NCBI GenBank assembly: GCA_002863125.1 | Contig: PKEB01000026.1 | Location: 1-64,000 of the forward strand | Direction of reading: 5' to 3' | Length of the DNA: 64,000 nt | Source: Flavobacteriales bacterium | GTDB taxonomy: Bacteria > Bacteroidota > Bacteroidia > Flavobacteriales_D > Sanyastnellaceae | Part shown: positions 46,859 through 53,085 of the stretch, piece by piece | Layout: each line of letters opens with the position of its first letter | Position numbering within the stretch: position 1 is the stretch's first letter | Translations under genes and position numbers: made by a program | The notes under the pieces: model-generated | What the model was told of the DNA's origin: nothing | Seen by the model: only the letters and a program-made list of their open reading frames with translations | The model's database searches: none

Positions 46859-48208
46859 TTACGCGCTGGGCTTCAACACAGATTGGTAGGTGTCGATGGC
46901 CCGTAGCCGCGCGGTTTTGTGGTCGACAATGGGGTTCGGATAGGCGGACGTACCATATTCAGGAACCCACTTGCGCACGTACCGCAATTCTTTGTCGAAT
47001 TTTTCGAGCTGGGAGGTGGGGTTGAAAACCCGGAAGTAGGGAGCCGCATCGCAGCCTGATCCCGAGGCCCACTGCCATCCGCCCACGTTTGAGGCGAGGT
47101 CAAAATCGAGAAGCTTCGCCGCAAAGTAGCGTTCGCCCCAGCGCCAATCCGTCAGCAGATGCTTGCACAGGAATGAGGCCACGACCATGCGCACACGGTT
47201 GTGCATGAAACCCGTGGCATTAAGTTCGCGCATGCCGGCGTCGACGAGGGGGTAGCCTGTTTTGCCCGCACACCAGGCCGCAAAATGCGCTTCGTTGTTG
47301 TCCCATGGTATGGCATCGTACGCCGGCCGGAAAGACCCTTCCACCGAGTGCGGGAAATGGTAGATGATCATTTGGTAGAAATCGCGCCAGATCAACTCGG
47401 TCGTCCATTTTTCGCTGTGCTGCAATCCTGCTCGCAGGGCTTGGCGAATGCCGATGGTGCCGAAGCGGAGGTGGAGGGAGAGGCGAGAGGTGCCGGGGAT
47501 GGCGGGGAAGTCCCGCTTGGCACCGTAGGCATCCAGCACCTCCGTTTCGATGTTCCGAGGCGGAACCAATTCATCCAATTCCGGACACGCTTCAAATCCC
47601 ATTTCGGCCAGCGATGGCACTTCTGCGTCGGTCACAGCGAGCCATGCTGCTGATTGCGCCTGCTCCAACGAGGGCGCTTCCGCATAATCCATGGCAGATA
47701 GGATTTTGCGCCACTTACGGCTGTACGGGGTGAACACCGTGTAAGGCTTCCCATCATCCTTCGTCACTTCATTTTTTTCCAGAATGACGCTGTCCTTGAC
47801 GCCTTTGAAGGTCACGTTGCGGCTGGCGAAAAAATCCGCCATGGCCCGGTCCCGCTCTTGGGCGTAGGGCTCATAATCTCGCCCAACGTGGACCGATGCT
47901 AGCGACATTCCTTGTACGTGCCACGTGTCCATCCACTCGTTCCATACGGTTTGTGGATTACCGTACCCTATTAATAGCTGCCCGCCAAAGGATTTTAACC
48001 GTTCACTGATGGCGTGCAGCTCACGGTGGAGAAACGCAACACGGCGATCGGATGGGTGTTCCAAGCGTTCCAAGATGTTCTGGTCAAAAATGAATGCGAT
48101 GGCCACGCGATCCGTTGAGGCGGCTTGTTCAAGAGCAGATAGAAGGGCCCGGTTATCCGCCAACCGCAAGTCTCGGCGCATCCAGTGTATGTGTAAGGAA
48201 GTTGACAA
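46859..48208 (-). CDS. phr: deoxyribodipyrimidine photolyase / cryptochrome
   Basis: The conserved start block is LHIHWMRRDLRLADNRALL. I chose TTG 48208 (MSTSLHIHWMRRDL); ATG 48271 adds 21 residues without homology, and ATG 48181 would cut into the conserved block. The ~449-residue protein has an N-terminal antenna domain (to about 180) and the FAD domain with NATGFMHNRVRMVVASF, WRWGERYFAAKLLDFD and SNVGGWQWASGSGCDA. It repairs UV pyrimidine dimers using blue light and fits a sunlit habitat. It is divergent from the cupredoxin gene. Confidence 0.93.
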   Translation of the reverse strand: MSTSLHIHWMRRDLRLADNRALLSALEQAASTDRVAIAFIFDQNILERLEHPSDRRVAFLHRELHAISERLKSFGGQLLIGYGNPQTVWNEWMDTWHVQGMSLASVHVGRDYEPYAQERDRAMADFFASRNVTFKGVKDSVILEKNEVTKDDGKPYTVFTPYSRKWRKILSAMDYAEAPSLEQAQSAAWLAVTDAEVPSLAEMGFEACPELDELVPPRNIETEVLDAYGAKRDFPAIPGTSRLSLHLRFGTIGIRQALRAGLQHSEKWTTELIWRDFYQMIIYHFPHSVEGSFRPAYDAIPWDNNEAHFAAWCAGKTGYPLVDAGMRELNATGFMHNRVRMVVASFLCKHLLTDWRWGERYFAAKLLDFDLASNVGGWQWASGSGCDAAPYFRVFNPTSQLEKFDKELRYVRKWVPEYGTSAYPNPIVDHKTARLRAIDTYQSVLKPSA

Positions 48209-48283
48209 ATTTTTCAAGCTGAAAGTGGAGCGAGCGTGAACCTTCTGAACTCCACACGGTTCTGTTCTCATAACCTTGTTAAA

Positions 48284-50179
48284 ATGAAAAAAGTTTTTTA
48301 CCTCTTTGGGCTAATGGCCCTCTTTTATGGGAACCAGTTGGTTGCCCAAGACAATCCCTGCGGTGTCGAAGGCGTCGTCGTAGAAGCGTCCAATTATCAA
48401 TACGCTCCGGCGGCTCTCGAAATTGAGGCTGGACAGACCGTTGCGTGGGTAAACGTCGGCGGTTTTCACGACGTGAACGGTGTTGAAAGCTCGATTGGCG
48501 AAAACTGGAATAATCCAGAAACATTTTCGACCGGAGCGGTAACGGGGAATATGGAGGGAGTCTGCATCGGCACGCACACGTTTACCGTTGAAGGAACCTA
48601 CGACTACGATTGTTCAATTGGGAATCACGCCGCAAATGGTATGGTTGCTACCATCACGGTCAACCCCGCACAGATGAACACCACGGTTGTGGATATAATC
48701 GTCAATAGCGAAGATCACACCTTGCTGGAAGCGGCTGTTGTTGCAGCAGGTTTGGCTGATGCTTTGAGCGGTGAGGGACCTTTCACAGTATTCGCCCCGA
48801 CCGATGCAGCCATCGTTGCGTTGACAGAAGCGCTTGAAATCACCGCAGACGAGTTGTTGGCATTGCCAAACCTCGGCGACATTCTCCAGTACCACGTTGT
48901 CGGCGCTGAGGCGTATTCAACCGATCTGAGCGACGGACAAGAAATCGAGACCCTCTTGGGAGAAAACGTAACCGTGAACATCACAGCCGATGGAGTTTTC
49001 ATCAACAACGCCCAAGTCACCGCTGCGGATGTGGCCGCTGACAATGGGGTGGTGCACGTAATCGACGCGGTTTTGTTGCCGCCCGCACCGCCGACCAACA
49101 CCGTGGTTGATATCATCGTGAACAGCGAAGACCACACGTTGCTCGAAGCAGCCGTTGGTGCAGTTGGTTTGGCTGACGCGTTGAGCGCAGAAGGTCCTTT
49201 TACTGTGTTCGCACCAACCGATGATGCGTTCACCGCTTTAACGGAGGCCTTGGATGTGACGGTCGACGAACTGTTGGCTTACCCCTTGTTGCCAGCAGTA
49301 TTGCAGTATCACGTTGTGGGTGCTGAGGCCTACTCGACTGATTTGACGGATGGTCAGGAAATTGAGACCTTGCTCGGAGAAGACGTGACGGTTAGTATCA
49401 CTACGGACGGTGTCTTCATCAACAACGCTCAGGTCATTGTCGCGGATCTTGCCGCCGATAACGGTGTGGTGCATGTCATCGATGCTGTACTGTTGCCCGA
49501 GCTCGAGGAAGAAACCACGGTTGTGGACATCATCGTTGAAAGCGAAGATCACACCTTGCTCGAAGCAGCTGTAGTAACAGCGGGCTTGGTTGACGCGTTA
49601 AGCGGTGAGGGTCCTTTCACGGTCTTTGCCCCGACCGATGCAGCCGTCGTCGCTTTGACAGAAGCGCTTGAAATCACAGCCGATGACTTGTTGGCATTGC
49701 CCAACCTCGCGGACATTCTCAAGTACCACGTGGTGGGCGCTGAAGCCTTCGCTGCTGACTTGACCGATGGTCAGTTGATTGAGACGCTGGAAGGCAGTAA
49801 CGTAACAGTAAGCATCACTGCTGATGGCGTCTTCATCAACGACGCACAGGTCACGGTTGCCGACTTGGAAGCGGACAACGGAGTGGTGCACGTCATCAAC
49901 GCAGTTTTGTTGCCTCCAACGACGGACGTAACCGAATTGACTTCGTTTGAATTGAGCATTTACCCCAACCCGGTACACGGAGGGACATTCACAGTATGCG
50001 GAGCATGGGAATCCGGCGCGAGCATTGAGGTGTTCGAGTTGACCGGCCGAAAAGTGTTTGAAACCACTTCTACGCAAACTACAGTAATCGTTTCCACCGA
50101 TGGATGGGAAGCGGGCTCCTATGCCGTACGCATCACGGATGGCGCTCGTACGGCAACACGATTGTTTCTGGTTGATTGA
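48284..50179 (+). CDS. secreted cupredoxin and triple FAS1 protein with T9SS signal
   Basis: ATG 48284 (MKKVFYLFGLMALFYGN) gives a signal peptide ending VAQ. Residues 20-130 are a cupredoxin with candidate copper ligands His62, Cys110, His115, Met120; the C-x4-H-x4-M loop is auracyanin-like. Three FAS1 domains start at residues 134, 273 and 412 (TVVDIIV...; GPFTVFAPTD; NGVVHVIDAVLLP), each exactly 139 residues apart. Residues ~555-631 (SIYPNPVHGG ... GSYAVRI) are a type A T9SS domain. A surface copper protein with adhesive or matrix-binding modules is inferred. A TAACCTTG box ends 5 nt before the ATG. Confidence 0.9.
   Translation: MKKVFYLFGLMALFYGNQLVAQDNPCGVEGVVVEASNYQYAPAALEIEAGQTVAWVNVGGFHDVNGVESSIGENWNNPETFSTGAVTGNMEGVCIGTHTFTVEGTYDYDCSIGNHAANGMVATITVNPAQMNTTVVDIIVNSEDHTLLEAAVVAAGLADALSGEGPFTVFAPTDAAIVALTEALEITADELLALPNLGDILQYHVVGAEAYSTDLSDGQEIETLLGENVTVNITADGVFINNAQVTAADVAADNGVVHVIDAVLLPPAPPTNTVVDIIVNSEDHTLLEAAVGAVGLADALSAEGPFTVFAPTDDAFTALTEALDVTVDELLAYPLLPAVLQYHVVGAEAYSTDLTDGQEIETLLGEDVTVSITTDGVFINNAQVIVADLAADNGVVHVIDAVLLPELEEETTVVDIIVESEDHTLLEAAVVTAGLVDALSGEGPFTVFAPTDAAVVALTEALEITADDLLALPNLADILKYHVVGAEAFAADLTDGQLIETLEGSNVTVSITADGVFINDAQVTVADLEADNGVVHVINAVLLPPTTDVTELTSFELSIYPNPVHGGTFTVCGAWESGASIEVFELTGRKVFETTSTQTTVIVSTDGWEAGSYAVRITDGARTATRLFLVD
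48683..49933. repeat. three 417-bp tandem repeats (FAS1 domains)
   Basis: Units start at 48683, 49100 and 49517, with an exact period of 417 bp (139 codons). Units 1 and 3 are closest (shared runs such as gcgaagatcacaccttgct); unit 2 has diverged in its N-terminal half (TALTEALDVTVDELLAYPLL). The pattern indicates duplication within the gene. Confidence 0.9.
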
Positions 50180-51143: not shown

Positions 51144-51201
51144 AGAAATCAAACAAGCCGCGGTGGCTATTTGTTGTAATTTCGAAGAAGAACTCCCTGC
51201 C

Positions 51202-53085
51202 ATGCTGACCTCGTTTTTTACCTGCACATTAAGTGTTTTACGTCACGTTCAAACCGGCACCTTAACCGCCGGTATTTTAGTTGTCACTGGTACCACCTGT
51301 TGTTCTGTTGTTGCTTGGGGCCAAACCCCCTGCGAGGGAGGCTATGCCGATGGATTTCCGTGTGACAGAATGACGCTGTTGTCCTCGATGAGCAATGCCG
51401 AATTAAATGGAACGGGCGCCAATGACGTCTGGGGCTGGACCGACCCGGTGACGGGCGTGGAGTATGCTTTGGTGGGTGAGCGTCAAGGCTTGGCCATAGT
51501 CGATTTGAGTGACCCGACAGCGCCCTTCTTAGCGGCTTTTATGCCAACGCAGACCATTTCGAGCACATGGCGTGACATGAAAGTCTACGACGACCATGCC
51601 TACGTCGTGTCCGAGGCCAATGGGCATGGATTGCAGATCTTGGATTTGAATCAACTGCGTGAATTATCGGAATTCCCTGCGACCTTGGAGCCGACCAACT
51701 GGCTAGACACCTTTTCTGACGCACACAACGTTGTCATCGACGAAGGATCTGGGCTGCTTTACGCCGTGGGTACTAATCTTGCCGGTGGCGGTATCGTAGC
51801 GTTTGATCTATCAGATCCGGCATCGCCGATTTTGGTCGGGGACTACAGCGAGGCAGGATACACGCACGACGCGCAAGGAGTTGTCTACAATGGGCCCGAT
51901 AGCGACTTTGCTGGTAAATCCATCATATTCGGAGCCAACGCCAACAAGCTTGCCATCTTGGATGCCACGGATCCGAGCGACATTGCCACGGTGAGCATCA
52001 CGAATTATGATTATTCTTACACCCACCAATGCTGGTTGACCGAGGATCACAAATACTTGCTGCTCGGCGATGAACTCGATGAGCAGAACCAGGGGATAAA
52101 CACGCGAACCTTGATTTTTGATGTTCAGGACCTGAGTGATCCAGTGTTGATTGGCGAACATTTTTCGGATTTAACAGCTATCGATCACAACCAATATGTG
52201 GTTGGGAATTTGCTCTTCCAAGCCAATTATAGCGCTGGCTTACGAATGCTATCGTTGACAGATGTCGCCGCTGGAGAATTGACTGAAATAGGATATTTTG
52301 ATGTCGACCCCATGACCGACGCGGCACAGTGCACAGGTTCTTGGTCAACATATCCTTACTTCGAGTCTGGTACCGTGGTTGTTACATCTATTGAAGATGG
52401 CATTTACGTCGTTCGTCCGAAATTCATCGATGTCGAAGTGGTGAATCCATCAATCTGTCAAGGGGAGGATTTGTTCGTGTTCATCGAATTACTGTCCGGA
52501 CTCTTGCCACCTTTTGAGTTAAGTATCCCTAATCTACCTACTGGAGCGAACGTGGAGAACTTTCAATTCGAGTTAGATGAGCCGGGTAGTTTCGTTTGCA
52601 CGGTGACGGGTCTGACTGAGTGGACTGGAGATCAATCGCTGACTGTGCAGGTGGATTCGCCGCTGAATCAAGTCCGCGAATCGTTTGAGTTCTCACTCGA
52701 GCCTAGTACTATCTGGTACGCCGATGCGGATGGAGACGGCTACGGCGATACCGCTGTGACTACCTTGGCGTGCTCTGAGCCTGTGGGGTACACATCGGAT
52801 GCAACCGATTGCAACGACGCCTCGGCTGTGGTATACCCAGGTGCACCTGGCACTGAACAGGGGCTGGACAACAACTGCGATGGGTTCATCACTGGAAATG
52901 AGGAAGTGGGGTGTCCGGGCGACTTCAATTCCGATGGTGTTATCTCCGTGGCCGATCTGCTGATCTACCTCGGGGAATTCGGATGCGAGGAGAATTGTAC
53001 GGCTGACTTTGACCTGGACGGGCTGGTCAACATCGGGGATTTGCTGGGCTTTCTGTCCGTCTTCGGGGCGCCGTGTCCCAGCTGA
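51202..53085 (+). CDS. LVIVD-repeat secreted protein with MopE and dockerin-like tail
   Basis: ATG 51202 gives a long signal sequence (GILVVTGTTCCSVVAWGQ). The 627-residue protein has a beta-propeller of LVIVD type (about 45-410; GLAIVDLSDPTAPFLAAF, GIVAFDLSDPASPILVGDY), as in choice-of-anchor B proteins. An Ig-like linker follows, then a MopE-type Cys/Asp motif (DADGDGYGD ... DCNDASAVVYPG) and two EF-hand/dockerin-like loops (DFNSDGVISVADLLIYL, DFDLDGLVNIGDLLGFL). There is no T9SS domain. Calcium-dependent anchoring is inferred. GC content is lower (about 45-50 %) than in neighbours. Confidence 0.8.
   Translation: MLTSFFTCTLSVLRHVQTGTLTAGILVVTGTTCCSVVAWGQTPCEGGYADGFPCDRMTLLSSMSNAELNGTGANDVWGWTDPVTGVEYALVGERQGLAIVDLSDPTAPFLAAFMPTQTISSTWRDMKVYDDHAYVVSEANGHGLQILDLNQLRELSEFPATLEPTNWLDTFSDAHNVVIDEGSGLLYAVGTNLAGGGIVAFDLSDPASPILVGDYSEAGYTHDAQGVVYNGPDSDFAGKSIIFGANANKLAILDATDPSDIATVSITNYDYSYTHQCWLTEDHKYLLLGDELDEQNQGINTRTLIFDVQDLSDPVLIGEHFSDLTAIDHNQYVVGNLLFQANYSAGLRMLSLTDVAAGELTEIGYFDVDPMTDAAQCTGSWSTYPYFESGTVVVTSIEDGIYVVRPKFIDVEVVNPSICQGEDLFVFIELLSGLLPPFELSIPNLPTGANVENFQFELDEPGSFVCTVTGLTEWTGDQSLTVQVDSPLNQVRESFEFSLEPSTIWYADADGDGYGDTAVTTLACSEPVGYTSDATDCNDASAVVYPGAPGTEQGLDNNCDGFITGNEEVGCPGDFNSDGVISVADLLIYLGEFGCEENCTADFDLDGLVNIGDLLGFLSVFGAPCPS

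Follow-up and report, generated by a model that had tools for sequence, protein, structure and literature searches.

A cupredoxin fused to fasciclin repeats and a type IX sorting tail in a family of marine Flavobacteriales

An uncultured marine Flavobacteriales bacterium with a genome of 2.27 Mb encodes a protein of 631 residues that joins a cupredoxin domain to three FAS1 domains and a T9SS sorting tail, and its gene lies head to head with a DNA photolyase gene. Both genes are located in the 64,000-nucleotide stretch of contig PKEB01000026.1 that was analysed here (the window). This raises the question of whether the protein is a copper protein of the cell surface or an adhesin in which the cupredoxin domain persists for structural reasons, and whether the neighbouring photolyase gene has anything to do with its function.

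Domains and predicted export of the fused protein

Analysis of the open reading frames agrees with the strand and coordinates given in a preliminary description of this DNA, and all four copper ligands named there were confirmed in the sequence (Table 1). An in-frame GTG at 48236 is an alternative start; the ATG at 48284 yields a putative signal peptide of typical form, which, as read by eye, consists of MKK, a hydrophobic stretch and AQ, and the Gln that would form the N-terminus after cleavage agrees with the Bacteroidetes 'Q-rule'. Pfam profiles matched PF00127 (Copper-bind) at residues 33-127 (E 6.7e-8, 33.3 bits versus a gathering cut-off of 21.2), PF02469 (Fasciclin) in three stretches (E 3.1e-94, 312 bits for the whole protein, above the cut-off) and PF18962 (Por_Secre_tail, E 1.6e-7), and TIGR04183 matched the C-terminus (E 1.6e-9, 37.6 bits versus a cut-off of 23). 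The proposed export via the T9SS is supported by this type A tail, which scores above the cut-off, and by the presence of the gene for the translocon protein SprA in the genome (SprA_N, E 1.5e-159).

Table 1. Positions of the features at the cupredoxin-FAS1 locus, numbered along the window
Feature	Position	Strand	Basis
DNA photolyase, divergent, head-to-head partner; true start probably downstream of the first ATG of the ORF	46859..48271	-	
TGAAC-N16-GGTTC, candidate ECF-sigma-type promoter, ends 21 bp before the ATG	48237..48262	+	
Cupredoxin-FAS1x3-T9SS tail protein, 631 aa	48284..50179	+	ORF and domain profiles
Putative signal peptide; cleavage probably before Gln (LVA/QDNPC)	48284..48346	+	Read by eye, inferred
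Cupredoxin domain (PF00127); ligands His62, Cys110, His115, Met120; extra Cys94, and Cys26 just N-terminal of the domain	48380..48664	+	
FAS1 repeat 1 and linker (residues 134-272)	48683..49099	+	
FAS1 repeat 2 and linker (residues 273-411)	49100..49516	+	
FAS1 repeat 3 (residues 412-545)	49517..49918	+	
Type A T9SS sorting domain (residues 559-628)	49958..50167	+	PF18962, TIGR04183

The AlphaFold model of the cupredoxin domain (pLDDT 89) was compared with solved folds using Foldseek and matched plastocyanin, amicyanin and pseudoazurin (E of about 1e-7 to 1e-6, probability 1.00, TM of about 0.57-0.67), whereas the model of the full-length protein (pLDDT 48) was too low in confidence for use. 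Amicyanin and plastocyanin were the closest folds, and auracyanin (6kol) followed at rank 42 with 19% identity. Thus, of the 'auracyanin-like' copper loop proposed earlier, only the C-x4-H-x4-M spacing stands, which is also that of auracyanin and rusticyanin, while fold and sequence are nearer to other cupredoxins. The protein scores lower than every NCBIfam equivalog cut-off, among them those for plastocyanin, pseudoazurin and amicyanin (27.5 versus 87.85, 25.9 versus 109.85 and 14.6 versus 110.2 bits, respectively). The protein therefore shares the predicted fold and the four type 1 ligands with the PF00127 cupredoxins (amicyanin, plastocyanin, pseudoazurin, auracyanin), but differs from them by the T9SS tail, the fusion to FAS1 and two extra conserved cysteines.

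The FAS1 domains follow one another at intervals of exactly 139 residues, as had been noted, and the spacing is explained by a domain of about 134 residues plus a linker of five. The period is trivial, however, and exists at the protein level only: it ranges from 137 to 141 residues in orthologues, and the 139-codon units are 74-82% identical in residues and 69-77% in bases (76-84% and 70-79%, respectively, for the first 135 codons). Together with the output of Tandem Repeats Finder, which reported nothing, these values rule out a DNA-level tandem-repeat origin of the 417-bp period. The low base identity, with only 37-53% identity at third positions, marks the repeats as duplicates of long standing under constraint rather than a recent expansion. 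Across species, and also within the genus, the number of units varies from one to four (some of the copies counted end at contig ends), while unit length is nearly constant.

Distribution of the fusion and of the cupredoxin module

A protein search found relatives in 113 of the 114 genomes of the GTDB family, many of them via FAS1 alone, and the cupredoxin module is present in 82 of the 114. The fusion to FAS1 was seen in six of the 21 genera (g1, g7, g14, g18, g20 and g21), and the architecture cupredoxin-(FAS1)1-4-T9SS tail is conserved within this one family of marine Flavobacteriales. Among the matches listed for 395 genomes of the phylum, none from outside the family aligned across both domains, and the cupredoxin ORFs retrieved from outside the family, most of which comprise a cupredoxin and a T9SS tail, contained no FAS1. 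A fusion that is general in Bacteroidota was rejected, since it was seen in no sampled genome outside the family. The view that the combination is unusual is borne out by this restriction and by the open-licence PMC literature, in which no description of a cupredoxin-FAS1 fusion was found; the architecture is clade-restricted, built from known parts and apparently undescribed.

Two kinds of proteins come close to the fusion. The relative that occurs class-wide is a plain cupredoxin of about 200 residues with a T9SS tail; such proteins have the cupredoxin and the type A tail in common with the fusion, but lack FAS1 and usually carry Trp instead of Cys at the position of Cys94. FAS1 repeat proteins of Bacteroidota share the tandem FAS1 domains and the T9SS tail, but not the cupredoxin; one of these, a second FAS1x3-T9SS protein, is encoded in the same genome (L042, G000:C1:8152-10251, +). 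In a simple reading, the fusion arose in the family, either by insertion of FAS1 into a T9SS cupredoxin or by recruitment of the cupredoxin module into FAS1 proteins. Monophyly of the fused proteins is borderline (AU p 0.041).

The cupredoxin module is a reusable part of the family's secretome, because it is also found on starch-binding, LTD or PKD proteins. A cupredoxin is also inserted into long LTD proteins (L220:3864-7859, +; L226:550-5181, -; G000:C18:1-1224, -), one of which has a weak OB-fold match; proteins of this kind occur in many genomes of the family, with frames of about 1330-1550 residues. In two other proteins (L231:3119-8260, +; L227:104-4756, -) a cupredoxin is combined with arrays of starch/glycogen-binding modules (CBM48, CBM20, AMPK1_CBM), and a short protein (L045, G000:C23:352-933, +) has intact ligands and a dockerin-like end instead of the T9SS tail. 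A same-genus FAS1-fused paralogue of 1046 residues (L180:1706-4843, -) begins with a thioredoxin-like domain (WCPPC), followed by an intact cupredoxin, two FAS1 domains, an LTD and a dockerin-like C-terminus; its thioredoxin-like domain and intact ligands would lean towards redox chemistry.

These observations bear on the possibility that the protein carries electrons in respiration as auracyanin does, operating between Alternative Complex III, or a chain energised by rhodopsin, and an oxidase. The C-x4-H-x4-M loop is consistent with such a role, and the genome contains a microbial rhodopsin gene (G000:C19:22386-23036, +; PF01036, E 2.2e-38). In Roseiflexus, auracyanin takes electrons from Alternative Complex III (PMC8552683). 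However, the type A tail would direct the protein beyond the outer membrane and thus away from periplasmic chains, and the related cupredoxin modules, of which a genome may contain as many as six, including some on CBM, LTD and PKD proteins, have the look of an extracellular module, so that a respiratory carrier is highly improbable.

Copper ligands beside the photolyase gene and elsewhere

The copper ligands differ between genomic locations. In a non-random set of related sequences picked from search matches, in which the counts do not represent independent events, the four ligands (H/C/H/M) are present in 24 of 24 FAS1-fused copies beside a photolyase gene (genera g1, g7 and g18), including one copy less than 50% identical to the window protein, and in 33 of 33 cupredoxin domains of the family without FAS1, whereas FAS1-fused copies elsewhere are complete in two of 23 cases (L180 and L181) and have lost one to three ligands in the other 21. 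The losses are C-to-S together with H115-to-Q (12 copies), H115-to-N (four), C-to-D together with H-to-N (three) and a deletion of the loop (two). In the tree, the paralogues with lost ligands form two well-supported groups, also when the ligand-loop columns are left out; parsimony requires two changes, and one origin is not rejected (AU p 0.435).

Two cysteines that are not ligands behave differently: counterparts of Cys26 and Cys94 are present in 47 of 47 fused proteins, including all 21 that have lost ligands, whereas sequences from beyond the family mostly carry Trp in place of Cys94. From this conservation we infer that the two residues form a structural disulfide.

Copper thus appears to be under selection at the photolyase locus and dispensable in the duplicates. 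It should be noted that the architecture alone implies no copper function, because most FAS1-fused copies elsewhere are without full ligands. The cupredoxin might do no more than cap a FAS1 adhesin with a stable beta-sandwich, with copper being incidental at the photolyase locus as well, and the paralogues that lost their ligands but kept both extra cysteines fit such a role. Nevertheless, neutral drift should have broken some of the sites beside the photolyase gene, including that of the diverged copy, and all of them are complete; a purely structural adhesin is therefore considered unlikely.

The photolyase locus and the putative role of the protein

The proximity to a light-dependent repair gene, which had been pointed out before, was found again as a head-to-head pair that is conserved across the orthologues wherever contigs reach. 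The pair is part of a block of eight genes, in the order lytic-transglycosylase-like, inositol-phosphatase-like, CoA transferase, photolyase (divergent), cupredoxin-FAS1, epimerase, choice-of-anchor B and ABC transporter (the names of the transglycosylase and the ABC transporter are our reading of the ORFs, the others follow Pfam profiles). Within the genus this order is retained, g18 has it with some genes missing, and a short contig in g7 contains only the photolyase pair. The cupredoxin-FAS1 gene is an old resident of the locus, and because the whole block is conserved, the adjacency to the photolyase gene is in itself weak evidence for a link to light. No obvious copper-homeostasis gene was found among the neighbours examined. 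The choice-of-anchor B protein (TIGR04312), encoded two genes away at 51196-53085 (+), has a MopE-type putative metal-binding motif and a GC-type dockerin.

Upstream of the gene, the element GAAC-N16/17-GTT, which we take to resemble promoters of ECF sigma factors, is present in 17 of 23 orthologous upstream regions, which are related by descent, versus 0.25 expected from mononucleotide shuffles. It is located 41-61 bp before the ATG, in most cases at 46, is near-palindromic in the closest species, and is present even where the rest of the upstream region aligns poorly. An ECF sigma factor may thus regulate the cupredoxin-FAS1 gene. The exact element occurs ten times in the genome versus 19 for the control and is not enriched, and no pattern that would indicate a regulon was seen among the ten matches.

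The conserved pair and the frequent element are compatible with a protein of light or photo-oxidative stress that is co-regulated with the photolyase from a common ECF-type promoter and deals at the surface with reactive oxygen or with oxidation driven by copper. In proteobacteria, ECF sigma factors are reported to connect photolyase and singlet-oxygen responses. However, the pairing may be plain synteny within a conserved block, the upstream sequences share their descent, and the nine other copies of the exact element are tied to no regulon, so that this role is doubtful.

On balance, we favour the reading that an adhesive FAS1 stalk presents a copper-binding head that serves redox chemistry or copper capture at the surface, with copper being functional at the photolyase locus and lost in duplicates. 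Judged from the type A tail and SprA, the T9SS cargo would cross the outer membrane and become attached to the cell surface, where the N-terminal cupredoxin would bind copper at a His2-Cys-Met type 1 site and the extensible FAS1 stalk would hold it outward and provide adhesion or spacing. Gain or loss of whole units would alter how many FAS1 domains the stalk contains. In the photolyase-linked copy, functional copper would form a redox or copper-capture centre at the surface, and electron exchange with something extracellular and the capture of scarce copper would both fit, whereas in the duplicates elsewhere the cupredoxin would persist as a structural domain without copper. A more elaborate version, in which an adjustable fasciclin stalk displays a blue-copper centre outside the cell for redox chemistry or copper acquisition, expression is driven by an ECF-type promoter common with the photolyase, and the duplicates drop the metal and become plain adhesins, is distinctly unlikely in its entirety.

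The literature that was searchable here says little about surface-exposed copper proteins of marine Bacteroidota. The same architecture with a copper site that is kept at one locus and lost elsewhere represents a natural experiment on the role of the metal, and this contrast is the part that is most worth pursuing.
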